Positions 7,501 through 47,154 of a stretch of 64,000 nucleotides of DNA are shown piece after piece. The notes under the pieces are model-generated. The model did no database searches and was not told the origin of the DNA. It saw only the letters and a program-made list of their open reading frames with translations. The stretch is from Dipetalonema caudispina (lineage: Eukaryota > Nematoda > Chromadorea > Rhabditida > Onchocercidae): the NCBI GenBank assembly GCA_013365325.1, contig JABVXV010000132.1:1-64000 (forward strand), written 5' to 3'. Position 1 is the stretch's first letter; each line of letters begins with the position of its first letter. The translations under genes were made by a program, and so were the position numbers.

Positions 7501-10500
7501 ACAACGCGTCTTCCTCCGTGGCGAGTCAGCAAATATCACCTTATGTATCACCGTCATCATCAATGCGACATTATAGCCAAAGACCTGGTATTAGACGGTG
7601 TACTCGAGTGCAGGATACATTAAAACAGGAGGTATGTGATTTCTGTTTGATAAGAGATATTCCATGTTTAACGTGAATTTTTCTACAATCGAGTAGAGTA
7701 CTTCAGAATTGTCTTATCATAATGTTACAGGGTTTTTGTGGACGCCCTAGACTAGGCAAAAAACATTCTTCCAATTTTCTCAAAAGAATAAATCGAAGTT
7801 ATAATTAAATTTCATTCACTTTTTGCAAAAAGATCATATGACCAACTTTCTGCCGATCTTTCCTTTAAGTGGGAACTACGATTCGACCTCAGTTTAATTT
7901 CTTATTATGTGTAAAGTTGTTAGTATTTCGCTTTCACTGCAGTACATTTCATAGTTTAGAAGTGGTGGAGTATCAAAAAGGTCATTTGCATGTTGTTTTG
8001 TACTTTAAAAAAATTTCTTTGCGCTTTCAACATATTTTATTTTGCTTACAGATTAGTGCTTTGGAAGCACGGCTAACGAAGAACGTTCTCAAGACTTCCA
8101 AGGTTGTTGAAAAGTATGTTTTTTGTTTTGTTTTATTAGCATAAATTGAAAAACAGCAGATTGAATTTGAAATTTAAAGATTTAGAAGTTCTGCTTTGTT
8201 GATTTTTCACTCTATTTTCCATCTCAAATACATTCACTTTGTTGATGTCCAATATGGCTTAATTTATTCATTTATTTCGAAATTTGATTTGAGTGATAAC
8301 CTTAAGGAATAAGATTGAGTAGTAGGCGTTAAGTTTCTTTACCGCATTATCATATTTTGTCATCATTAGTTACTTGTCATATTTAATTATTATTAACATG
8401 GTAAAATACGGAAAAAATTACGGTGGAAGTAAATACTTGACTGATTTTTCCATTTGTAACTAAGATCATGCATGCTGTTGTTTTTCAGTTATTTACAATA
8501 TTTCGATCATCGTCGTGTTTTTGATCCGTTTCTAACTCAACCTGGCGCAGCGGCTGATCCTTTCCAAAGTCATTCAAATCCCTGGATTTCCGACACCGTT
8601 GATTATTGGCAACATGATAAAATGTACGAAAAATTTTGTAAGAAAATGGAATGGGATGAAAAAGAAATCATTGCATTACACTGTCATTGTTTCCATAGTG
8701 AAACGTTTTTGACAGATTTTTAAGCGAGAAATTGTATTAAATAATTGAATAAGTAATTCATACTTCTTCATGTAGTTGATGAAAATTTGTCATTTAAGCT
8801 TTGATTTCTTCTATTAATGTTACTTCACCATTTCAAAATGAAAAAGTTGTCTCTGATTAAAGGAAATGTTTATAGTACTGTGATACTAGTAAATTTTTCA
8901 TTCTCCAGAACTGGTGATGTATCAATGCGTCGTTTGAAATTATGGGAAGAAAGCTTTGAAGAATTATTATGCGATGAAATAGGTAGGGAAACGTTGCAGA
9001 AATTCTCCGACAAGGAATATTCTGGGGAAAATTTACGCTTTTGGTGGCAGGTGAATTATCGTTTTTAGAATTATTATTTCTTTTCTATTTTTCAGAAAAT
9101 ATATTCACCTTCATTTCATTTATGGTGTTTTTTTATTAACGTCCCATCGATTATCCTATGATGACAAATGATATAGTATGAGAGTTTTCAAGATAATTAA
9201 CATTCTCTAAGATTAACGAATATACTGCACATATTTCTAAACACGAGAAAAAACAAGAAATGGATAGGATAATGAACAGATAACCAGTTTCTTTACTTTG
9301 TAGTCAAGTAATGGAAAAAAGATTATTGGAAAATTATAAACTGGTAGTAATCAACGAATTCATTGAATTTTTCGAATTCGTTCAATTATTGTTTCTACTT
9401 ATTTTGTTGACAAATCAATTTTTTTTTTGTTTAGGTTCAAAAATTACGGAAATGTGCATGTCGTATGGTACCTGTACTAGTAACTGAAATATACAATGAA
9501 TTCATCGATAAAAATGCAACCTCACCGGTTAATATAGATTGTAAAGTGATGGATCAGACGGAAGAAAATTTGAAAAATCCAAACCGTTGGTCATTTGATG
9601 AGGCGGCGGTAAAAATTCAATCATTTTTTTCATTTAATTAAGTTGTTATGAAATTGAATAATTTCAAAAATGGTTGCTATCAGATGTTGATACAGCTCAT
9701 TAAGTTAAACTACATTCAAGTTAATTTGAATCTCCGTATACATCAGCGTCAAAGTATTGCTGCAAATTACATATGAAAATTTCAGCAATATTAAAGCTGA
9801 ACTAGGAAAAGCTTCTTTTTGTTCTTAAACATAACGTGATGAGATAGTTGAGCGAGAATTCCAGCAACACCAGTTGCTCGTGATACGAACATCGCTGAGT
9901 TTGCATGATGTATAGATCCCGTAGTTGCCGTAAAAGCGTATTAATACACAATACTTATCGAAGAGGTTCACATTGAAAGATGTCAAAAAGCAGTTTCGTT
10001 CACATAGAGATCATAAAAATTGCAGGATCATATCTTTTGTTTGATGAAAAATGACAGTTATCAACGGTTTTTGCGTTCCGAAAATTATAGAGAATTGCTC
10101 AATCAGTCGAAGAAAAAGGTTGGTTTTAGAATGCGAGTTGTAACGGTAATTTTACCAAAATGATCTTACTATATATCCTCTAGAAACGGTATTTAATGTA
10201 GAAGGCGAGAAGATTCCGAATTATTTTTCCCAAATCCTACCTTTCGTATGTGTTAATAAGGTAGAAATAAATGCAGTAGTTGGTTAGTTTGCTGATTCAG
10301 TTGTCAGTTGAGAATAATAAAATTCAAAAATTGGAGTTTTTGTTTCTGATCCTCTCTTATTTTTTCGTTTCTGTGTCTTCTTGTTCTTGCTTTTGTTCCC
10401 CAATAGTTTTTTCTCTATGGTTGACTTATTTCTTCGCTCCAGGTTTTCGGACAAGCTAGCTTTTATATGTTTTTTTGTATTGGAATGTCTATATCACAAA

Positions 10501-16826: not shown

Positions 16827-19300
16827 TTACCATCCACCTCCACCACCTTCATCATGCACAGGAGCTGTCGGATAAAGTCCTTTGCCACCCGTACCAGTAC
16901 CACGAGCACCACCTCTGTAACCTCCATCAGGTTGAAATGGTGCCGCGGGATATGCGCCACCACCCTGATAACCTGGAGAAGGGGGAACATTACGACGTTT
17001 ACTACCACCACCGAAAAGTTGACCAGCCAAATGACCCAAACCAACACCTCCAAGGCTGCCCAAGAAACTGTTGAAACCTCCACCTCTTCCATGTCCTGAT
17101 CTATTACCACCGTCATCTCTTGGACCTCTACCACCACCCTCAATATCGGAGTGCCCTTGTCTTCGTGGACTGCTGCTGATACCACCACCCTTCCGACAAC
17201 AACAGCAGTAGCATAAACAACAACAACAACAAAGGATAGGCACAATGACGAGGAAAAGTACAATCCAAAACCAAAATGGTATATGTGGCAGAAGACTTCC
17301 ACGCTTCTTGGTATCATCTGGTCCAGGGATAATATCACGGGGTGTTGGAGGAACAACTGGACCGAAACCACCCGCATCATCTGGTCGTTCAGCTCCCCCT
17401 TGTTTTGATATAGCTTTTTCCCATGTTTGCTGTATGATATTGCCCAGCGCTTGCAGATACTCTCCTTGTTGGAAAAATTGCTTCTGTAACATCATATTAT
17501 TTTTTATCAAAAATAAAAAATTCACCAAAAATATAATTAAATGATTGATCGACTTAATTAACCGATCAATCAGCTGATTGACTGCTCAATCAATCAATCA
17601 CCTGATTCATTAATTTCTTAGAAACTCCTTTCACTTTATTAGTGCCTGATGCACTGCCAAATGCTTCACTTATCGCTCTTGGCACTTTTTTTTTTTTTTT
17701 TTTTTAAAAAGGAAAAAACAGAAAAGAACTTGATGTGTTGTGAAATAAATTTTTTTCTTTGAAAGCAATGTGATATGATATGCAGAAAGCACATCATAAG
17801 ATACCATATTATACTAAAATCTATCATCCCTCAAATTTATATCATAATAATAATGATGAAAAATAGTTACAGTTTTATCACAACATTTCTGAACAATCCA
17901 ACGATAATCTACCATATGTAAAATTTGCTAACGATGATTTTTTTAAACATTTCATGAAAACATATGGTAAATCTTATAAAATGTAATCAGACGATCTTTA
18001 GTATCCCTACTTTTAAATCCCGATGGATTGATAAGTAATAAATTTTGAGTTCCTCACAATTACGAATAACTATCTCATAAAGTCAACCTCTGGAGCATAA
18101 CAACTCAAATAATCTATGCTGGATCCATTTTTTAGCCAAATAGATTATAAATCGAATAGAGGATAGATATTATGAATGAAGAATACAAAGTTATAATTTA
18201 CTTGAGAGTTGAATATTTGGGTAAATTCTTGTGCATACACAGGAACCCGTGCATCACGTGCTACCCAAAATCGACGATCTTCGGTTGCAATCACGAAAAC
18301 CACCGATTTCTGACACTGATTATCTAATGTCCATTTTCGAAGAATTTGATTTGCCATTTCTTTAACAGCCTTCAAAATTTTTTATTTTATATTTCCATTC
18401 TGACAATTTTATGCATAATTTTAATACCGAATCCTACTTTTCATCCTAATGTTATGACTAAAAAAAATCGAATGCTTTAGCCTTTACAGTTCAGAGTAAA
18501 GAAGCAGCAAAAGAACCAACAATATCATTCTTTATCAAAAGAATGGTTATGAAGTAAATAGAAGGAAAACAGCACCAACAAGGATGTAAACTACAAAATG
18601 TATTTGGGAAAGGATTGGACTAATTTCATTTTCAGATATTCAAAAACTAAATCTTTCTACGACTATCTTAATTTAAATATAAGGTCGAGAATTAACTTAC
18701 TTCGTCTGAATTTCCTCGAATATGTTTGACAACAGCCATTGCTGCTGTAATTCCCTTTTTTTGACAAAAATCGGGAGCATGATCCTATAAACGGATGTTA
18801 AAGAGTTAGACTTTTGAATACAAGGTGAAGAAAAAGTTTTTAATTATAATTGTTAGAAATTTCTCCTATTTATAGACTAAAATTTTATTAAAATTATACT
18901 TATAGGTTAACTGTAATGAGCGGAATGAATTTTATTGATAGCTTAACGATATGAATATTTCCGGAAAAAAAATGACCGCCAGCGGCGTACAATTACAGCA
19001 TTAATATTAAACATAACGATAACTGGAATTACTTTCATATCTTATGCTTAATAAAAAATATAATTATAAGCAAATGACCTGCCGGGTTCGAGATTCCAGC
19101 TGATGTAATTCATGATTCAATCGATAACGTTGCGATTCGGTTAATACTTCGTCTGGATCACATATATTCGATGTTGTTCGCATACGACATCGCTTGTAAT
19201 CACCGGCTGTTGGATTCGGAAAATTCGATGCATCCCATTCCAAACAATAACATTTGGAAAGGATCAGCAACAGTGCGATGCCAATCGATGATGAACCCAT
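16827..19300 (-). CDS. Secreted single-pass TPM-domain protein, MOLO-1-like
   Basis: Four exons on the minus strand (19079-19300, 18701-18784, 18202-18369, 16827-17483), all in phase 0, give 376 residues. The ATG at 19300 opens a clear signal peptide (MGSSSIGIALLLILSKCYC). Next comes a TPM domain (about residues 22-160), the extracellular fold shared by TLP18.3, Psb32 and MOLO-1, with CQKSVVFVIATEDRRFWVA and VPVYAQEFTQ. A membrane segment (IPFWFWIVLFLVIVPIL) follows, then a run with ten cysteines in about fourteen residues and a Gly/Arg/Pro-rich cytoplasmic tail ending in glycines and Trp. Known: C. elegans MOLO-1 is an auxiliary subunit that boosts levamisole-sensitive acetylcholine receptors. 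Whether this is the MOLO-1 orthologue or a paralogue cannot be settled here. The juxtamembrane cysteines suggest palmitoylation (inference). Confidence 0.85.
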
Positions 19301-21597
19301 TACTGAAAAATATTAGCATGAAAATAATAAGAAAAGGAAAAATTTTTAAAATTCGATTAAATGATCGAAAAATCAAACTATTTAAAACAAATACTCTTAG
19401 AATACAGTACAACTAATGAATACAATATGACATATTTGTTAAATACTTTAGATTTCAATACTCAATATCATCGATCATATATACATCAATAACATTAAAG
19501 TTATCGATTTGTAGGAAACTAAATTAAAATTTAATACGAAATCATTGATTTACTATTCTATTAATCGATTTAAATCTTTTGATATTGAATTTGATACAAC
19601 AGATGATAGACAACATCGAGTTGTACAATCGTTCAAAAAGCACATGTACATTAATAAATTATATTAAAATCTACTACTTGTGTATTTAAGTAAACAATAT
19701 ATTATAATTACTATCAATAAACCCTTTTTGTTATTGATACCTCGCATTGATAACAAATATTGCAAAATAGGTAAAAAAAAAAAGCACTTGAATATTATTA
19801 TAAGTAAATAGTAAATTTTAAGTAACAAGAATGATATCAAATAGTTGAGGTGAAGTTAATTAAACATTAATCCTAATGCTAAATATTACTGTTACTGATA
19901 ATCAAAAGAGTAATTAAAAGTTTCCTTATCATTCCGTTGCAAATATAAAATTCTGCTAATTTTTTTTAGCAAATTTAATAACTTTTAGAAGATACATTTA
20001 AAATAATCTTTTTGATTTTTGAATTTCAGAATCTGTTCTAGCAAATCACTGAAAAAGTTCACAGTAGAAATATCACAATCTTAAATTTTTCACCTTAATT
20101 TAAATTTTCATAAAAAACGATAGAGAAAACATTAAAAGCATGAAGAAATTTAAAAAAAAAAAAAAAAAAGATTTCCTTTAGAATAAATAGTAATATTTAA
20201 CATTTAACAATATTAAGTAAATAAGGTAAACAAATAAACTGTACTAATATTGGTGACTTCAAATATCATTTGTATTTTAGAAATCAAGTTCCATGTTGTT
20301 GCTTAGCAACTTTAGCAATGACTGAGTTACCTACAAATCAATCTTATCATTAACTTTTGTGAGTAATAAGTTAGAGAAGCATTATCGTTTACATTTATTG
20401 CTACGAATAATTAATAATTAGTAATTAACGACAGTAATAATAATATTAATATTAATACCAATAATTTTGAAGTGATAAGTATGGAATAAACAGACAATCT
20501 AGCTAAGCCGATAAGCAAGTACATAAACAACGAAATAAGTAAATGAATTTAAATATCTTAATTCATATTAAATATCCACTTAAATCAAATATAAATAAAG
20601 CAATAAAAAAAGGAAATAAATAAATAAAAAATCAAATAAGTTACATCCACAATTTTCATAATTTACTAAACATTACTTCTCCACTTATCCTGTTCTTCTT
20701 TCCCTAATGATTAGAGTTCAAATGCAGTATTCCGGATCCGGCCATACAAAATGAACATCTTCAAAGAACCAACTCGACGATTCAAACTCTTAAATATTCC
20801 AAAACATTCAATGTATCCATTTGAGCTGATGAGAGTTGTACCTTTTTTGAAATGTAATAAAGGTAACGAAAAGTAAATAAATAAAAATTATAATCGATTT
20901 TACTGCTATAAATGTATTTTAAAATAGAAAACGAGTTTTATATTGTTGCATGAATGAGCTAATTTGATAGAACAAATAAAAAAAAAAAAAAAAAAGAAAA
21001 AAATTTCAAAAATTGAACTAATAATGAGATTAATTTAACTCCTGAAATAATTTTCTCCTATACTTAATTGTTTAATTATATCATAGAAATAAATATATAA
21101 TAATTTAAACTATCTACGATACATACATACCTTCGAAATGCTTTCCACTTTTACCTATACGATGCCAAACGATACGAGTTATTTCATATCATAGTTGTAT
21201 CGATTTAGTACAATAACGACAAAACATTTGCATAGTAAACTGAAATTCGTTAAAAGAAATAAATAAAAAAGAGAATTTTAATTTTATTGAACAAATTTTT
21301 TGGTTAATTAAATCACTGAAAATGATATTATACAAAAGAAAAGATGAGAAAATGATCAATTAAATAATGCAAGCAATTAATGAGATAAAAATAATTTGAT
21401 TAAAGATTGGTTATTTAATAATTTGAAAATGAAAACGATTGTTAAGCAAGGAAAAAGAAAGAAGGAAATAAATAGTAATACTAATGCAATAATGTGGTAA
21501 AAATTTAATATATAATTAAATGAGAAAAATATTTTCTCAATCTATTATTTATTTTAAAATTTATATATTATGGGAAATCGAAAGTAAAGATGGACTA
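19301..21597. other. Upstream region of the TPM-domain gene, no gene seen
   Basis: AT-rich sequence with poly-A runs near 20154-20169 and 20980-20995. Short open frames at 19171-19416 (plus) and 19200-19412 (minus) overlap the first exon of the TPM-domain gene and look like shadows of it. The promoter of that minus-strand gene must lie here, but no motif was recognised. Confidence 0.55.
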
Positions 21598-21987
21598 ATG
21601 TTGTATTTCGAGAACGTGTGCATAACGAATATAGGGATGTTGTACTTCGAGAACGTGAACGTAAAGGATATGGGAATGCTGTATTTCGAGAACGTGTGCA
21701 TAACAAATATAGGGATGTTGTACTTCGAGAACGCGAACGTAACGAATACAGGAATGTTGTACTTCGAGAACGTGAACGTAAAGGATACAGGAATGTTGTA
21801 TTTCGAGAACGTGAACGTAAAGGATACAGGAATGTTGTATTTCGAGAACGCGAACGTAACGGATACAGGAATGTTGTACTTCGAGAACGCGAACGTAACG
21901 GATACAGGAATGTTGTACTTCGAGAACGCGAACGTAACGAATACAGGAATGTTGTACTTCGAGAACGTGAACGTAAGGGACATACGA
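21598..21987 (+). repeat. 39-bp minisatellite, ten copies
   Basis: Ten head-to-tail units of exactly 39 bp, each starting atgttgta(t/c)ttcgagaacg. Units come in at least three variants, one (copies 1 and 3) carrying gtgtgcataac. Since 39 is a multiple of three and the unit has no stop in several frames, long open frames exist on both strands; the plus-strand reading gives 13-residue units such as MLYFENVNVKDTG. No splice signals, signal peptide or family similarity mark it as a gene, so it is called a repeat. Confidence 0.9.
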
Positions 21988-29302: not shown

Positions 29303-32300
29303 CCGATTAGATGTTAATTAAAGCCTCTCAAATTGCTTCATTATTATTCTGTTTTTCAAAAGTTAAGTAATCTGTGAACACCCTGTTATATAACATAGTA
29401 GAAATATCTGACGAAAATACTACGAGAAAACTGACTCACTTTGAGATGATTTTATTAGACTTTATTATCTTGCATTAAATAATAGTTATAAATGATACAG
29501 TAAATATAAGGTAGGATATGCAGTGCAATAACGAAAAGAGTTAATGTTTCAGGAAGACAAAAATACTACGTTACTTCAGGTTCAATAAATTTCAATTCCT
29601 AAATTCTGTCTAAAACTGTCAAACTGGAAGACCTCTGTACTTGCATAAAACTCTTTGCCATGAGATACGCACTAACAATTCCAATTACAATAACATCACA
29701 AATAAAACTTTGTTCCGGAAATGAATGATTTAGAAATAATTCTACTTTTTTTATAATTAAACAAAAAGGAGAGAAAGAAACCTGTCAAAGGTTGCATGAA
29801 TGAATAGAACGTGGCATCATTGTCATTTAAATCCAAACATAACAACCGCATCAACGACGCATAAAATGTTGTCCGTGATCGCATTGTCATCAAATCAGCT
29901 TCCGAAGACAAAAATGAGAAATGTTCACACTGTAAATTAAAACCGATTAAAAGCTGAGAAAAAGAGGAAAAATTTTTGAACAAAATTTGTATAGCAAATC
30001 AAAATGACTTGTCGGTTCAAAAACCAATCGAATACTTCAATTGCATTTCATCTGTATTACCACCAGTAAGTTCTGTACTATGCTAAACATTTGGATTGCT
30101 TAAGGATATTAACTACCCAGTTCAAGCTGCTTTCATCCTCTGTCACCAAGACTGCATCCCAATACTTGATGTATGAATGAGTGGCAACACGTTTGACTCA
30201 TTCATATTTCACCTAACTAGTAAATTGATTCAAAATTAACCGAACAAAAAACCTGCCTTTTGGCATCGTTTATTCGATGTCGTTAAATTATTTAATCATC
30301 AGTAGAAAACAACACATACCGAGTGATTATTCAGCAGTAATTGTATGTCAGGTAATCGCATCAAGCGACGACCAGCAGAAAAACCCAGTGAAAGTTCGTT
30401 AAGCAGCACTAAACTGTCATCCACCAGCTTCTCCTCTGCTCCCCAGTATTTCAGATTCGTGATACTGCAATGACTGTTATTTTATCACTTGTTCATCGGT
30501 GACAAATGTTGCTTGACATTTAAATACATTATTTAGCTGAAGTAAAATGGTGACAAATATGAAATGATAGCGTGGAGGGAAGGGACAACACAGGACTGTA
30601 TCGATAATGAAGTAAAATTAATGGCGATAAAGACGTTACAAAAAAAAAAACTAAAAATTACAGATTATCCATCCCTGCATCTAAGATAAAACGGCTAACT
30701 TCGATATAACAAATTATGCTATTAAGACTATTTAGTATACAAAAAACTTACATTTTGCGAGCATATATAGTAATTACAGCAGTTTCGTCCTGTAAACCAA
30801 GGTTCTTCTCGAGTTGATCATATACTTTACTAATTTTCTGGATCTGATCACTAACATAAATCTTTCGAAATTGATCTAACATATAAAGATAGGCCACTTC
30901 AAGCTTAAAGTTCCCTGGCACACCAGCCGAAAGTCGTGAATCCGACAATTCCATAAGTTTCAATACCCTGAAGATTTCATAAGAAAAAAGTCACCTGATC
31001 TATAACTTAATGATTAAGCACAAGATTTTGCTTAAATTAGTTCCTAAATGCTAGAACAAGGAAAACCTGTGCAAAGAAGATTAGGGATAAATGGAAGGTT
31101 AACACAGTTAAATCCTTTATTTCTTGTTTGTTTTATAGGGACAAAATAGCAATAGTCTGTGGCAACTTTCAAATTTCCGCAGCCAACTTACGGGGAATAT
31201 TTAGATATCCAAAGTTAAAAACCAAGAAAAAATAAAACGCAATGGTACTAACCGGCAAATCAGGTTTCCATCAACGACATCATGCTCTTCACAGTTACTA
31301 TATGATGCTCGACCCTGTATTGCTGCGCCAATTATCGTTACTAACCATGTCAAACAAGCTACTGACTCACGTGCTTCAGCCGACTATAATGAAAGATATT
31401 TTACACTTAAATACTATCTCACAGGTTTTATAACTTTCCGTAATGAACTCTCTAATATACCCATAGCACATGTCACAATCATATGATCATAATCAAAGTT
31501 AAATTTACTGGTTGCAATTTGAACTTTAACTAAAATTTATAAATTCAAATTTTCACGAACTCATAAAAGAGTAAATTTCGTGGTAGTTTTAAAAGTGAAT
31601 TTTAAGCAATTCATACCGGCGGATTACTGGCTGACCGCTCGTATATCGTATAGTCATGATCAAATAAGCGTACAATTAACTCCGCTGATTTTTCATATTC
31701 ACAGCGGCAAATGATAGCGATCTGCTCCATAACCTGTTGGATGGCACCTTGGTCGTCTAACGGATCGTCGCCTATATCACCCCTGTAAATGTTCAGGAAT
31801 ACGGAAGTTTCAAAATAATACAGCAATAAGAGGTGACTTAGAACAAGACCTTTTAAAAATAAAAACGAGATTTATTGAAAACTTAAGCATCAGAAACCGC
31901 ACCAAAATTTTCCTTGAAAAAAACTGAAATTACAAGAAGCAGGAAATAGTAAAGCAATAAAGATAAGCGATATGTGCACCATTCATGTTTTACGAACCTT
32001 GCTTGTACTTTTTTTGCCAAAAGTTTAATATGCTCTATGTACCGTTTCTTCCCTAAAAGTCAAAGCCATTGCAAGTGCTCCTCTTCCTACTAAGCCCCGT
32101 TTTTATCCAGTTTCAGAACCAACTGCTTTCTCCTCCCTGGTCCTCAGCGATCTTAATCCTTCTTTGAAAAATGAGTGTGATCAAATGAGAGTACCTTATT
32201 CAGTACTGTACTGTAGTACTGATCAAAATTGGACTCAACAAGCCCTTTGTATAAACACATTTTACGTACAGCAACAGTATAACCTGAATGAAAAAATATA

Positions 32301-39394: not shown

Positions 39395-42300
39395 TCATTG
39401 TTGTTCTCTATCATACATATTTTCTGGTGGATTTATTTCCTGTATATTTGTCTGTAATTGTCAACATCAAGATATTTCAACATTTTAGTGAACAAATGAA
39501 GAGTTAAGAATTAAAACCAAATAAACTGAAGAGAGCCAAATGAACAAATATGAAAGATTATTAAATGAGCAGGTAATTAGATAATAGACATCCTTTTTTA
39601 ATAATAAATCAAAATGCTTGTTTTGCTTCTTAGCTATTTTCATTTTTTCATTTCCATTAAAATTCAAAAAAAAAAAAAACAAAAAAACAAATTGAGTAGA
39701 AAGATGAGGTAAAGAAAAACTAACAAATCGTCCCATGCTTACAACAAGAAATCGTCCAACTTCTGATTTGCTAACAATCATATAAAGAAACGGTGTATCA
39801 AAAATGATATCCGCTTGTATATCTGAAAGAAAATTCAGTTTGAAAGTATTTTCTCTTTTGTATTTGATTTATTAATTCAAAATTATTTGTTTAGTAGAAG
39901 AATTTGCGAAGAAATATCAAAAATTTGAATTTAAATGTGATAGCTATTCAATCGGTTAGATCTAGCCAACCGAACTACTTTAGTTAACGAAGTACTAATT
40001 TAAAAACTTATATTTGATTTCGAGATTACAATAAACTTCAATGTCACCTAATAATTTAATTGTATCACACCTTTGACTTGATCTTCCTTTACCATAAAAT
40101 ATGGATTGATAGCAGGTAATTCATCTTGCTCCACCATAATAGTATCTCCTTTATTAGTAAGTGCTATTTCAGGTTCTTTTATAAAACGAAATATAGGTAG
40201 TTTTTCTGTAAAAAAAAAAAAAATTCAGCAATATAAACAAAAAGTTAGGAGGATTTTAATGTGCCAAGAAAATAACAAAAAAAAAAAGTGGACGAAACGA
40301 TAAGAAGAAACTAGGTGAAAATGTTGGAGAGAATGATTGAAATGTTGAATAAATAATATGAAACGATCGATCTGAAACATTTAGCAAAAGTTTCAACTGA
40401 AATTCTACAAAATTATACTTTGTGAAGTTGTCTCTTTCAATTTTCCAGTTGTTTCTTCCTTTGAAATCTCGCCAACAGATGCCTATAAATCAAAATACAA
40501 ATTGCTAGAAATACTTATATATAATACCTTGAATATTACCACATAATTGGAATATTATTAAAATTTAAACGAAATTAAAGTGATGAACCCTATCAAGAGA
40601 GATGCGAAAATAACATCAGGACATCGAGAAATACCAGAATTTGAGATAATCGAATGTAACAGTTATGGTAAGAAGTGGAACAGGGAAGAAAGGGAAAAGT
40701 GATAGATTGAATATTCTGACCGAAATTGAAGTATTAAGTAATGACCAAGATATAGTAAGTGGATTTCCAAGGAACAAATAAGTGTCACAAAAGAAATTTC
40801 AATTTTAAGCTAATGTAATTCAACAATTATGATCGGATACACATTCAATAACTTTTAGCAGCTTACCGTACAAAAGGAGGAAACAAAATATATCATAATA
40901 TTGATGAAAGATAATGATAGTGATAAAAATAGAAATAATTGTTGCAAATTTTAAATTCAAAAATTTACTTTTGAAATTTGTTTTTTGATTTCTGTACCTG
41001 CCGCCAAACGTCGCTGAAATATGATTTATTTTCTTCATCAGTGAACAAAAAATTCCTTCTCTTTCTTCTTTTTTATCCCATTTTTCGTATTTGTATTCGG
41101 TTACAACTTAACCTTTACTAACTCTTTATTAGCTTAATTGACCTTTCACTGTTATTAACTTTTCCTCATCTTTAATAATTACTACTCTTCTTCCTTTTTT
41201 CATACTTTCATCAATTTTCACATAAAAACAAAGAATAAAAGCTTTAGCCAAAGTATAATATAATAGATCATCGTTACTTGCAAGACTGTTTGTTGATAAT
41301 TAATTAACCTAATATTAAAGTCAAAGTTATCATACTCCTTAATCATCATATTGATGGTAAAATTTACCGAATATTGATATGACACTGATGATTGTGTTTT
41401 GTTTTCATCATTATCGTTTTCCTTATTATCACGTTGCGTTTGATCATCTATTTTAGAAGATTGTTGATTACCTACACTTGATTTGCTTGTTGATGACTTA
41501 GTTGAATTTTTTTTTGTATCATCAAATATTTCATCGGTTATGGACTGCTTTCTAAATTTAATAATAGCTAAAAAATACGATAATAGAAAATAAGTTCTTT
41601 GAAAATAACTGCTATTAATTGATAATTATCGGGGATATTTTGTATATTCTGGAATTTACAACAAATTCAGTAATAAAAAAAAAAGAAACTTTTGTGAAAT
41701 CTTATATATAAATGCTTGAAATAAAGTAATTTTCGAAATGAGCAAATCGTTGTGGGAAGAAAAGGCAAAAAAAGAAATTAAAACGAACTATGAGGAAATT
41801 GAAATAAAATATTTCGAAATTTTGAATAAAATGAAGAAAAAGAATAGAACAAAATAAATATGATAGTGTAAAATAGTATAGTATAGGGTAGAATAGAGTG
41901 GAACATAGTATTTGAGAACAATTTCATATCACTCAATCAAATATTTGTCAACTTATAGGTAAATAAATGAAAAATTTTGGAAGTAATGCTTAATTAATTA
42001 GTACAAAAATTCGTGTTAGTGCTATTTACCTCTTTGAACTTTTTTGCTGTGATAATTCTTTTTTCCGACTAGCATCCAATTGAATTCCCATTTGCTCCAT
42101 TGTATTTTCCAAGAAATGCTGTAGCAGTTTCTTTGGTTGTGAGATTCTACGATTTACCACATTCCGCCTGTTTTCCTTTACTGCATTATTGATATCATCT
42201 ACGGTTGACCTATATCGTTGAAGGTAAATAGATGAATATGCAGCATATGTGTACATCTTAGATTTTTTCAGTAATTTCCAATTCTTTTTTTTTACAGTAA

Positions 42301-45300
42301 TTGTCAATGTATCCCGGTTATACGATACAACTAATCGCTTAACCGTATACCATAACGAATTGTACATCCGATGGCTTTCCAAAAAACGAGATATCTGATA
42401 TCATCATCTTGAATTTATATGTTGATAGGTTAAAAATACTTGTTTGGACTTTCACGTTTGGTCTTCTTTAACTTTTTCGGCTTAGAAAATGAACTGAATA
42501 TTCGTCTACCATCAAAATTTTCGTCATTTCCGTTCTGTAAATTGATTTCTTTTTTTTTTTTTTTTTTTGTAAAAAGCAAAATGGAAATTCAACGATCCAT
42601 TAATATTTGGGAATTTATTATAACCCACGTTGTGAGAGATAAAAAGAAAAGTGAATATGGCTACTAGACGGATAAATGTATTATCTTCACGATTATATGC
42701 AAGAAGAATGTAAAACAATGAAAGGAACAAACTCCAAGAATTCCAATTATATAATGCTTTCGATCAATTCCAACTTGACCTTCTATAATCATCATTTTTC
42801 CGGTTACAGCTACCACTTCCTGATGTTTTTTTTCCATCGTTTCATCTTTCATTGCTGTAACAAAAAATATTTCCTTAAAAAAGAAAAAAAAAAAAAAAAA
42901 TCAATAAAGTGTATCTTTTACCATTCTGGCCAATATTTTGTTAAAAAGTTGAAAATTAATTTTACGAAAAAGTGATTACTTTTCTGAGTGAAAGTTACAG
43001 CTCGCATTTCATCATCATTTCCTTTCTTCAATTCCGGCTGTCCAATTTTTAACTACAACACAAATTATGAATTATGTTAAATTTAATTTTCGATAGTTTG
43101 CTAAATTCAATTTACAATAATAACTTAAAATAATATAAGCTGCGTAATCATAACAGCTAAATTGGGACGATGAAAAAAAATTATTCGCTTAATATTTGAA
43201 TGAAAAAGCAAATAAAATCCAAAAAAGGACAATTAAGATTAGCTTGATATTTACGTTTTTGTTAGCAAAATTTTTACGGAAAAATTATTGCCATAATCAT
43301 GAAAATGATTTGAAAGTTTTTAATTTTAATTTAAATTATAATTTAAACATACAGCCATCTTAGTCTTGTGATAATAGTCCCAAAGTGGATATATTTGAGA
43401 TGGACCATAAATTTCCTGTGAATTTTTTCCATATATCATTCCAAATTCGGCCTTATCCGGTGAAAATATTCGAGCAATACAAGGATATGGAAATTGTGGA
43501 TGTTTCTTTTTGAATATAAAATGATAGAGCGGATTGCATGGAGCAAATACCGATCGTAAACCAACAGGTGAAATTATTGAAAAGCATGGAATTATAATCT
43601 GAAATTGAATATTTTTTACTGCCATATATCGATTTGACATACGGAATTAGAAATATTTGGAATGTGCTTCAATTAAAGCAATTAAGCATTTAATTCGTAA
43701 TAATGTAAGGATTTCTCATATTAACTTTTGGCTATAAATTTTTAAAATAATAGTTAAAATTGAACTGGATAATTTTTAAAAGTTCATAGTAGACTTATCG
43801 ATTTTCTCGTCGGTGCTAGATCAATTTGATTGATATAATGTTGTAGTTGTTTAGCGTTAAGTGATTTCAAGAAATGTTTTGAAAATAGCATTTTTGGTTG
43901 AAAAAGATACCTAAATTTGAAAAATATGCCTAAAATAAAAATTTTATCAATCAATTTGTTTGCAAAGAAATTTCAAAATTTTCCATTCTCCTCTAGTATC
44001 ATCATCCATATCAGTACTTTTAAATTTCATCAAAACATTACATTTTAAGATTAACAGTTTCCGAATCTAATTCCACGACATTTATATCATCGTTGGTAAG
44101 ACATGTACGAAACAAACCATCACATCGATATGCTTTTATCTAAATTTAATTTTAGATTTAATTATAATTTTAAATTTAAATCTTTTCTAATAAATTTAAT
44201 TTTAGCTTAAAACATAAACATTTTACTTTTCTATGCTAAAATAGTAAGTTTAAATTTACCACGCTACGTGTATGCAAAATTTTCTCATATGTTTCATAGA
44301 AAAATGTTTCCACTTCCATTATTTGACCAGATGGCTTCCAATAAAATGTTGAATTGTATGAAGTTATCAAAACTAAACGTGTCCCTTGTTTTGGTGATAA
44401 ATCTTGCCGTACCACATATTCCGTAGTTCCTTGTGTTGCTTCCTAAATAATAGCAACAATTATTATTCCACAATGAAATCTTCCCGAAAGATTGAAAAAT
44501 CGATAATTCGTATCATTTAATATGAGAAAGAATAAGTTGATATGATAAAATGATAGGAAATAAATTTCCATTTAATTTTGTCAAATTAAATTACTTTAAT
44601 ATTTTTGTTCATTTCATTTACAAGCGTTTGTCCATTTGGATTCATTTGGAAGCATATTGTTTGCACCACTTCTTTTTTCATCCTTTCTTCCGGATCAAAC
44701 ATTGTCATTTCTGCTTCATGAAACTGCAAAAAGAATGAAAGCGAATAGAATGGATAAATTAATCTGAATTTGAATTAACTAACCTCTGTACCGTAATACT
44801 TTTCAATATATTCAATTAATTCATCATTAAGTTTTAATAAATGGTTTTCTTCAAAGTATATTTGTATTGCTCCTTTTGATAATGATTTCAAGTGATTGAT
44901 ACAAAGATCGTTCAAATCTTCATGTATGGTTTTCCCGAGAGGTTCAATTGCTCCAAAGAGAGCTATAGAAAGAAGACAAAATTATTTTAAGAAATTTAAT
45001 GATAATCATCTATAACTCAATTTCAACAAGTTTTTCCGAATATGAAAGGATATCCTAGTTTGTTGACATTTTGCTTTTATCGATACAATTCTTACAATTT
45101 TGATCAATGTTACTAATAATACTCTTGTAATCTTATATAAGTTATTCAATTATTTGATCAAACGTTTCTTTCGATCAACTACTTTGCAATACATGTCGAC
45201 TGATTAATTTATCGCAAATCTTCGTTTTATATTTCATACCTTTTGAAATCAAATTTGCAAGTTTAATTTTACATTTGCCATCAGCTAATATATACAAAGC

Positions 45301-46014
45301 TGTAAGTCCACGAACAATTTGCAACGGTGAAATGGCTAAGTTCCATTCTTCATTGGTAATACGCAAATTTTGCTGAAATTCGAAATACGATATTGAAATA
45401 ATCCATAACAAGTGAAATTCGATATACTATCCATCATCCGAAAGACATTGGTCAAAAACATATCACCCAGTATTAAAATAATTCAACCGGTTAATTCCAC
45501 TAGTCATTTATTCATACATGATGAATTCATCCGGTTAATCCTAACAATAACTGATCCGGACAATTATAGTCATAATTTAATGGGAAAAGAATTTTTAAAT
45601 ATAAATTTGATAATTGTTAAGATAAAAAAAAAAAGCAACTTCACATTAACAAAATAACAATAAACATTTAAGATTTGCAAAACGATCATTTCGATGTTTT
45701 TTTTTTTTTTTTTTTTTGATGCTACAACTAAACGGTAAATTGAAATCTTCGTTTTTTTTTTTTTTTTTTCCATTTCTAATGCATAACGTGTATCACATAC
45801 GTACGTCTTTACGTCTATTCTTCAAAATATAAATCCATGTATTATGAGTGGAATCTAACAGAAAAAAAAAAAAAACAATGAGTAAAAACAAAATAATTTG
45901 AAATGATACAAACCAATTCTTCCGCTGGTAAATATTCTAAATTAAGACGTTTCGATGGAATTTTGTTCAATAGTCGAATACCAAAATCGATTAATGGGAA
46001 ACAATCCCAGTCGT
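39395..46014 (-). CDS. Highly divergent serpin with a large internal insertion (5' end not found)
   Basis: Exons (minus): 46014-45914, 45372-45240, 44962-44784, 44723-44595, 44442-44260, 44139-44042, 43910-43795, 43618-43353, 43052-42980, 42854-42733, 42534-42440, 42374-42030, 41551-41368, 40482-40419, 40205-40071, 39822-39725, 39439-39395; about 788 codons, phases consistent. Serpin landmarks in order: WNLAISPLQIVRGLTALYIL (helix B region), QGTRLVLITSYNSTFYWKP (usually NAIYFKGxW), VNLKMYLFQPK (usually LSMLIVLP), LRSVFAPCNPLYHF, then IIFDTPFLYMIV and VVSMGRF, the C-terminal serpin signature. About 350 Lys/Glu/Ser/Asn-rich residues are inserted before the reactive loop. The hinge lacks the small-residue run of inhibitory serpins, so a non-inhibitory role is likely (inference). 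The acceptor at 42374 and the exon at 40482 were chosen by phase and are the weakest points. No start codon or signal peptide was identified upstream of 46014. Confidence 0.75.
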
Positions 46015-47154
46015 CTATGATAATTTCTGATTTTTACTCAAATTTCAATTGAAATTTATAAACAAGTCAAAATAAGTAAATCAGTACTTTTGTATTAATT
46101 TACCTTCAACTTATTGAAATGGAATATTTCTCGACGAAATTTTAACTTAGTTATTCTTACCATAACTTAACTACTCTAATTTAATTATACTTAATTAAAT
46201 TTAATCATTTATTTAAACCAAGAAGAAAGTGTGAAATTGTCGTAAGATAATGATAATAAATAATTGTTCATAAATAAACGAATTTTTATTTCATAATATA
46301 GAAAAGTAAATTTTCTTTTCTCTCACTCTCTCTCTCTCTCGTTTTTAAGTAAATTTAAAAAAAAAAAAAAAGACAATAATAGTACTAATTTTCGGATGAG
46401 CAAATGGAGTGACCATAATGCTAAAGTTATTGAGTAAAATAATCGATCTCAAATTTGTAACTTAAACAACAGTTCTCGAATATCGAGACAAATAATACTA
46501 ACTAATAGCAAGAAGGAATTCAGCTATTTATAATTGTATTCAAAAATATGCAAATTACAAAAAAAAAAAAAAAAAAGGTCAACGAATATTTTTTTGTTGT
46601 GTTCAAAAAAATGAAAAAAGATGGATAATATGTAGCAAAAAATTTCAAATATATCAGTGTTAGACTTTTGAATATTCTTCATAAATATCAGCTTTACATC
46701 GCTTTATTTCCAATTGGATATAAAATTCGTTTAATAATAATTTCAACTTAGTGACAAATTTTTTTGCACCAAATCATTTTATCAATTCATTTTATCATCG
46801 TATAACAATTTATTGAACATAAAAGATATTTTTATACGACAACTTCTATTATTATCATTGCATAAGCAATTAAACTTTTGCTTCGCCGTAACATATCATA
46901 TTTTTTTTGGACAAATTTATTTTTCTCAATTTCCGGAAATGCTGATTGGAATATCTGAAATATTTTTTACAAAAATATGAAATCATTTCTAACTATTCAA
47001 TTTCTATGATTATTTTGCAATTTTTATTGCTAAACCTATCAAAAGTATTTTTAACACGATAAAATCAATCTTTCAATTTTAAAATATTAAAAGTACTAAG
47101 TTTCATCATACCTTTAATGTATTTCAGATGAATAGATTATTTATCTTTAAATGT
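46015..47154. other. Spacer between the serpin and the PP1-like pseudogene, with one orphan exon-like segment
   Basis: AT-rich sequence with a CT run (46320-46341) and poly-A tracts (46347-46371, 46559-46576). On the minus strand 46954-46832 looks like an exon: acceptor atttcag, 40 open codons starting IFQSAFPEIEKNKFVQKKYD, then TAA. It could be a last exon of the PP1-like gene (phase 0 fits a donor at 47213) or an unlinked remnant. It does not fit the phase needed for the serpin 5' end. Confidence 0.45.

Follow-up and report, generated by a model that had tools for sequence, protein, structure and literature searches.

A probably non-inhibitory serpin of filarial and ascarid nematodes with an insert that appears to occupy the reactive centre loop

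Within a 64,000-nucleotide stretch of the filarial nematode Dipetalonema caudispina (assembly GCA_013365325.1, contig JABVXV010000132.1, positions 1 to 64,000; hereafter the window), a gene on the minus strand, running from 46416 down to 39395, probably encodes a non-inhibitory serpin that is conserved among ascarids and filariae, with a reactive centre loop grown to about 305 residues. Read from the sequence, the gene is one in-phase chain of exons that encodes both serpin ends, shares its architecture with relatives, has no inhibitory hinge and carries an insert at the ordinary intron position of strand s5A. A first-pass annotation had recognised N-terminal, central and C-terminal serpin blocks in order, which we also saw on the minus strand, and its estimate of about 350 residues between the LRSVFAPC block and the reactive-loop region agrees with the 339 residues counted from the end of LRSVFAPC to the start of VEQDE. 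The protein is, as it had stated, about twice the normal serpin length, with 754 residues if the exon junctions follow the relatives and 762 in an alternative model.

Relatives and predicted serpin body

The search for relatives, the phmmer search against the PDB, the first Pfam scans and alignment A1 used a first, 715-residue exon model as the query, and the Pfam scan was re-run with the 754-residue model. The initial search found 10 proteins at an expect value (E) ≤ 1 among 6,342 candidates, and a profile of those 10 found 13 proteins at E ≤ 0.01 among 7,425 candidates, comprising three from Onchocerca, one each from Acanthocheilonema, Litomosoides, Wuchereria, Brugia timori, Cercopithifilaria, Elaeophora, Dirofilaria, Thelazia and Parascaris, and P0008. 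Identity to the window protein was 61–73% in ten relatives, 56% in Thelazia, 47% in P0008 and 32% in Parascaris. Because all thirteen follow the window protein in colinear order over whatever length they have, at identities of 32–73%, the similarity is not due to chance, and the proposed check for the same architecture in other filarial proteomes was positive.

Both sides of the insert were present in six of the 13 relatives (P0001, P0002, P0003, P0008, P0013 and P0004, the last without its N-terminal part). The 2,378-base contig that carries P0008, a protein of 748 residues (2,244 bases), is in all likelihood a transcript, given that the window gene extends over about 7 kb with 18 introns. 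Across the six spanning relatives, identity to the window was 42–79% in the N-terminal core, 16–58% in the insert and 32–76% in the C-terminal core, while the insert measured 222–376 residues compared to 254 in the window. Lys, Glu, Ser, Asn, Thr, Gln, Asp and Arg together made up 60–68% of the insert. The window kept 200 of the 211 columns that are invariant across the other filariae, a level that falls among those of the other species. For this count and for the regional identities, the window sequence carried one extra isoleucine at the exon 8/9 junction. The gene is single copy in this assembly: all nine P0008 matches in the 78 Mb fall inside the window gene, with no second copy found, and the exon 8/9 region likewise matched only itself.

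The window protein is assigned to the serpins through its relatives, the profile comparison and the predicted fold. The Pfam serpin family (PF00079) was matched at E ≤ 0.01 in 7 of the 11 rows of alignment A1, and upon re-scanning of six relatives, P0001, P0003, P0008, P0009 and P0013 scored above its cut-off and P0002 gave no match. All Pfam matches of the insert, in the window protein and the re-scanned relatives, fell below the cut-off. Aligned by hhalign to a serpin profile, the two ends separately gave E values of 1.1e-11 and 1.3e-4, compared to 0.16–0.58 for column-shuffled controls, which supports the serpin identity. W231, P330 and H403 of P0008 are invariant columns listed for alignment A4 (72 sequences), and the window carries the Trp and His in the matching columns of alignment A1; we take these to be the breach and shutter residues of serpins, respectively. 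In the better of two structure predictions, made for a relative, both ends are predicted to form one native-like serpin body, which the C-terminal end completes; the proposed check for one serpin fold was thus positive too. The Foldseek matches listed for the other prediction, made from the relatives alone, were serpins. One of the 50 listed for the better model was titled virus capsid (9c2t chain S), and the PAI-2 loop-deletion structure 1by7 was also among them; HSP47 and other non-inhibitory serpin structures were among the Foldseek matches listed.

The insert and the reactive centre loop

The first 61 of the 339 residues after LRSVFAPC run up to and through most of s5A, and exons 10–16 then encode 254 residues, the first of which (LKIG) are predicted to finish that strand. 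In the better model, s5A is complete at residues 398–411, just ahead of the insert, and residues 490–668 have a predicted local distance difference test (pLDDT) score below 50. Since s5A is complete directly before it in the model, the insert appears to occupy the reactive centre loop, and would hang out in its place, held at both ends. The presence of the reported insert was upheld, but not its placement upstream of the loop. From the end of s5A (ALKIG) to PFLY the window has 305 residues, which gives a loop of about that length, compared to 28–32 residues from the P17 Glu to PF in 57 of 59 ordinary serpins.

For comparison, we read five further serpin loci from this genome (L014–L017; two on contig C184 and one each on C329, C429 and C555), a lower bound from our search. 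By GT/AG and frame, each of the five has a phase-0 intron immediately preceding [VI][ND]E[KG]G; the shutter His position, the sixth residue ahead of this intron, is occupied by His in two loci, by Asn in another two and by Gln in the fifth. A phase-0 intron also interrupts s5A of the window gene at the corresponding point (HKTKMA/LKIG). Another phase-0 intron, located three residues ahead of the s2C Pro, was present in the four ordinary genes checked for it and at the relatives' junction here, and this shared position is the site of the irregular exon 8 donor described below. Because the insert starts at the ordinary s5A intron position and in its phase, recruitment of new exons into that intron would be the simplest history.

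The inhibitory hinge, P17–P9, has the consensus ExGTEAAAA, as given in the excerpt of PMC8233489. It was absent from both possible places in the window, after s5A (LKIGQPELK) and before the C-terminal end (DELPAINPYF), and neither place fits it in the relatives compared for hinge-to-PF spacing. By its sequence the protein is probably not an inhibitor, as had been suggested. Multiple alignment could not fix the site of the hinge, which over 16 runs shifted on P0008 between about residues 410 and 590. Judged by eye, only one of the five ordinary loci keeps the consensus hinge (EKGTESAAAT, on C184); a missing hinge is therefore not exceptional in this worm, where non-inhibitory-looking serpins may be common.

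Within the insert, the segment TGKMMIIEGQVGIDRKHYIIGILG of exon 11 was 66–95% identical to other filariae and more conserved than the insert overall. The insert was basic and low in hydrophobicity in all ten rows examined (of 14; three inserts are incomplete). The Parascaris univalens insert (P0013) contains a long Arg/Ser repeat, none of which was seen in the filarial inserts. In the window protein, and in six of the ten relatives whose N-terminus is available, no more than about 20 residues precede the first serpin helix, which makes an intracellular protein plausible.

Exon structure and surroundings

The 19 exons join in phase across 18 introns, one junction more than previously counted, and the start given before, 46014, is that of exon 2. 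The missed coding exon 1 (46386–46416, MVTPFAHPKI) was located via the N-termini of relatives, several of which it resembles; an AG resembling a splice acceptor, possibly a spliced-leader site, ends four bases upstream of its ATG. Exon 2 (45914–46014), compared with relatives, covers the helix A region and exon 3 (45240–45372, ISPLQI...LADGK) the helix B region, followed by exons 4 (44784–44962) and 5 (44595–44723), exon 6 (44260–44442) with the block TFYWKP, whose Trp is the one invariant in alignment A4, and exon 7 (44042–44139). Exon 8 (43799–43910) ends at the relatives' junction on a non-GT donor, ATAAGT (43790–43799). The 762-residue model, with GT-AG at all 18 introns, instead ends this exon at 43795 on a GT three bases past the relatives' boundary and needs a weak acceptor at the exon 8/9 junction; neither spliced model has an internal stop. 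Exon 9 (43353–43598; alternative start 43618) runs from IIIPCFS through LRSVFAPC to PLWDYYHKTKMA, covering most of s5A and the invariant His, and its end is the s5A intron position of ordinary serpins.

Exon 10 (42980–43052) opens with LKIG and continues into the insert, which also takes in exon 11 (42733–42854), whose conserved segment is a predicted hairpin of low confidence, the Lys-rich exon 12 (42440–42534), exon 13 (42030–42209), the Ser/Lys/Asn/Asp-rich exon 14 (41368–41551), exon 15 (40969–41013, RRLAAGTEIKKQISK), located via relatives, and exon 16 (40419–40482). Exon 17 (40071–40205, IMVEQDELPAINPYF) may hold a leftover of the ancestral hinge, exon 18 (39725–39822) encodes the C-terminal serpin hairpin s4B/s5B (DTPFLYMIV...MGRF), and exon 19 (39395–39451) the C-terminal tail, with a stop codon earlier than in relatives. 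The unusual donor and early stop may be sequence errors, alleles or genuine changes; relatives without either exist. The relatives served to correct the 715-residue model, in which exons 1 and 15 were missing, exon 2 started too far upstream, exon 11 was truncated and exons 8 and 9 were joined at a weak junction.

Elsewhere in the window, exons of an exportin-7-like gene were found at 30751–31871 on the minus strand (PF25795, E 3.4e-22 and 5.8e-15), and an exon of the MOLO1 (modulator of levamisole receptor) family at 19067–19312, also minus (E 7.3e-14). A weak GGL/G-gamma domain match lies at 8460–8720 on the plus strand, slightly under the curated cut-off, and a 39-bp tandem repeat of 9.8 copies at 21597–21980 is open in several frames of both strands.

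Discussion

The reading that we favour, a conserved non-inhibitory serpin with a greatly extended reactive centre loop, implies the following course. New exons would have been recruited into the ancestral s5A intron, and the loop would no longer function as a protease trap; the serpin body would instead be a rigid scaffold, probably cytosolic, that presents a long, basic, disordered loop to partner molecules, with the better conserved segment TGKMMII...RKHYIIGILG offered to them as part of it. More tentatively, and with somewhat less than even confidence, we suggest that the recruited exons rebuilt the end of s5A, so that the old hinge came to lie at the distal end of the 305-residue loop. The trap may in this way have become a functional domain, disordered and clamped, on a body that stays permanently native, and it would have been kept since the ascarid/filaria split.

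Several observations weigh against this reading. The window protein itself matched no Pfam serpin (PF00079) with either the 715- or the 754-residue model, and phmmer with the former matched no PDB serpin. The better model has an overall pLDDT of 62, and when its N-terminal core is divided into ten-residue blocks, just about half of them reach 80. With 59 ordinary serpins in its input alignment, the predicted fold was in part imposed by homology; the model from relatives alone was poor (pLDDT 37, predicted template modelling score 0.34). Seven of the 13 relatives are shorter predictions that end before the C-terminal end, P0001, P0002, P0006 and P0013 have longer annotated N-termini (two with a short hydrophobic stretch), the rest of the protein is also basic (+12 to +15) in four of ten rows, and the non-GT donor and early stop are irregularities of this assembly.

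The closest competitor in structural terms would have the insert split s5A, with HKTKMA as its first half and DTIMVEQDE of exon 17 as its second, leaving a near-normal loop and an insert that bulges from sheet A. The insert does start at the s5A intron position, and the Glu of DE/YE lies 26 residues from PF in six of seven sequences and 28 in the seventh, although an exactly ordinary length was ruled out by the 28–32 residues of 57 of the 59 ordinary serpins, and the hinge cannot be placed by alignment alone. The model completes s5A right after HKTKM and gives the exon-17 segment a pLDDT of 28–44, and an insert within the central strand is physically unlikely on general grounds; we regard this arrangement as unlikely. 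That the protein is an inhibitor after all, its hinge and reactive loop lying unrecognised within the insert, perhaps near TGKMMII, seems the most improbable of all: some MAFFT runs placed the hinge of ordinary serpins near this comparatively conserved segment, but it scored E 0.23 and 0.35 against the serpin profile, compared to 0.20–0.58 for shuffles, and no ExGTEAAAA-like stretch was seen.

Two adjacent genes, or a truncated serpin and a separate C-terminal piece, could have been misjoined by the gene models, and the seven shorter relatives, annotated to end in or before the insert, would fit this. Six relatives nevertheless span both ends, P0008 fills its contig so nearly with coding bases (2,244 of 2,378) that introns could hardly fit, the window exons join in phase and the C-terminal end completes the predicted body, which makes such a misjoin very improbable. 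Decay of the gene in this species, to which the exon 8 donor and early stop would point, is quite improbable given the uninterrupted spliced models and the retention of filaria-invariant columns at a level usual for the other species. A nuclear or nucleic-acid-binding serpin like MENT, with the basic loop as its binding part, is somewhat less improbable than decay but still unlikely; the uniformly basic insert and the Arg/Ser repeat of Parascaris would suit it, but the nuclear localisation motif K[KR]x[KR] occurred 8 times in ten inserts compared to 12.9 expected from shuffles (summed means), and was absent from four of the ten.

The extended-loop protein shares with the serpin superfamily (PF00079) and nematode serpins its predicted fold, block order, invariant Trp and His and C-terminal hairpin, and with the ordinary serpins of this genome two intron positions; it differs from ordinary serpins in having about 305 rather than about 30 residues between s5A and PFLY, some 25 extra residues after LRSVFAPC and no inhibitory hinge. 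PAI-2 and MENT also combine a serpin body with a flexible insertion, which in them lies between helices C and D and is far shorter. Non-inhibitory serpins such as HSP47 have the fold without protease trapping, but are not known to carry an insert of this size and have known ligands. No description of a long-loop serpin family was found by title or abstract in the full-text literature, whose coverage mostly excludes subscription journals. The longest reactive-loop extension met in the literature, as far as the excerpts went, was that of the tick serpin Iripin-8, whose 'unusually long' loop likewise carries its extension in the reactive centre loop, but of 11 residues and in a protein that inhibits proteases (excerpt of PMC8431025).

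In our sources this parasite gene is named only as a serpin. The serpin mechanism is generally taken to constrain how long the reactive loop can be. If the proposed reading is true, a loop about ten times longer has been kept in filariae and an ascarid, so that the serpin scaffold would be reusable with its loop as a domain, and with this family nature would supply a test of the demands that metastability places on sheet A and the hinge.
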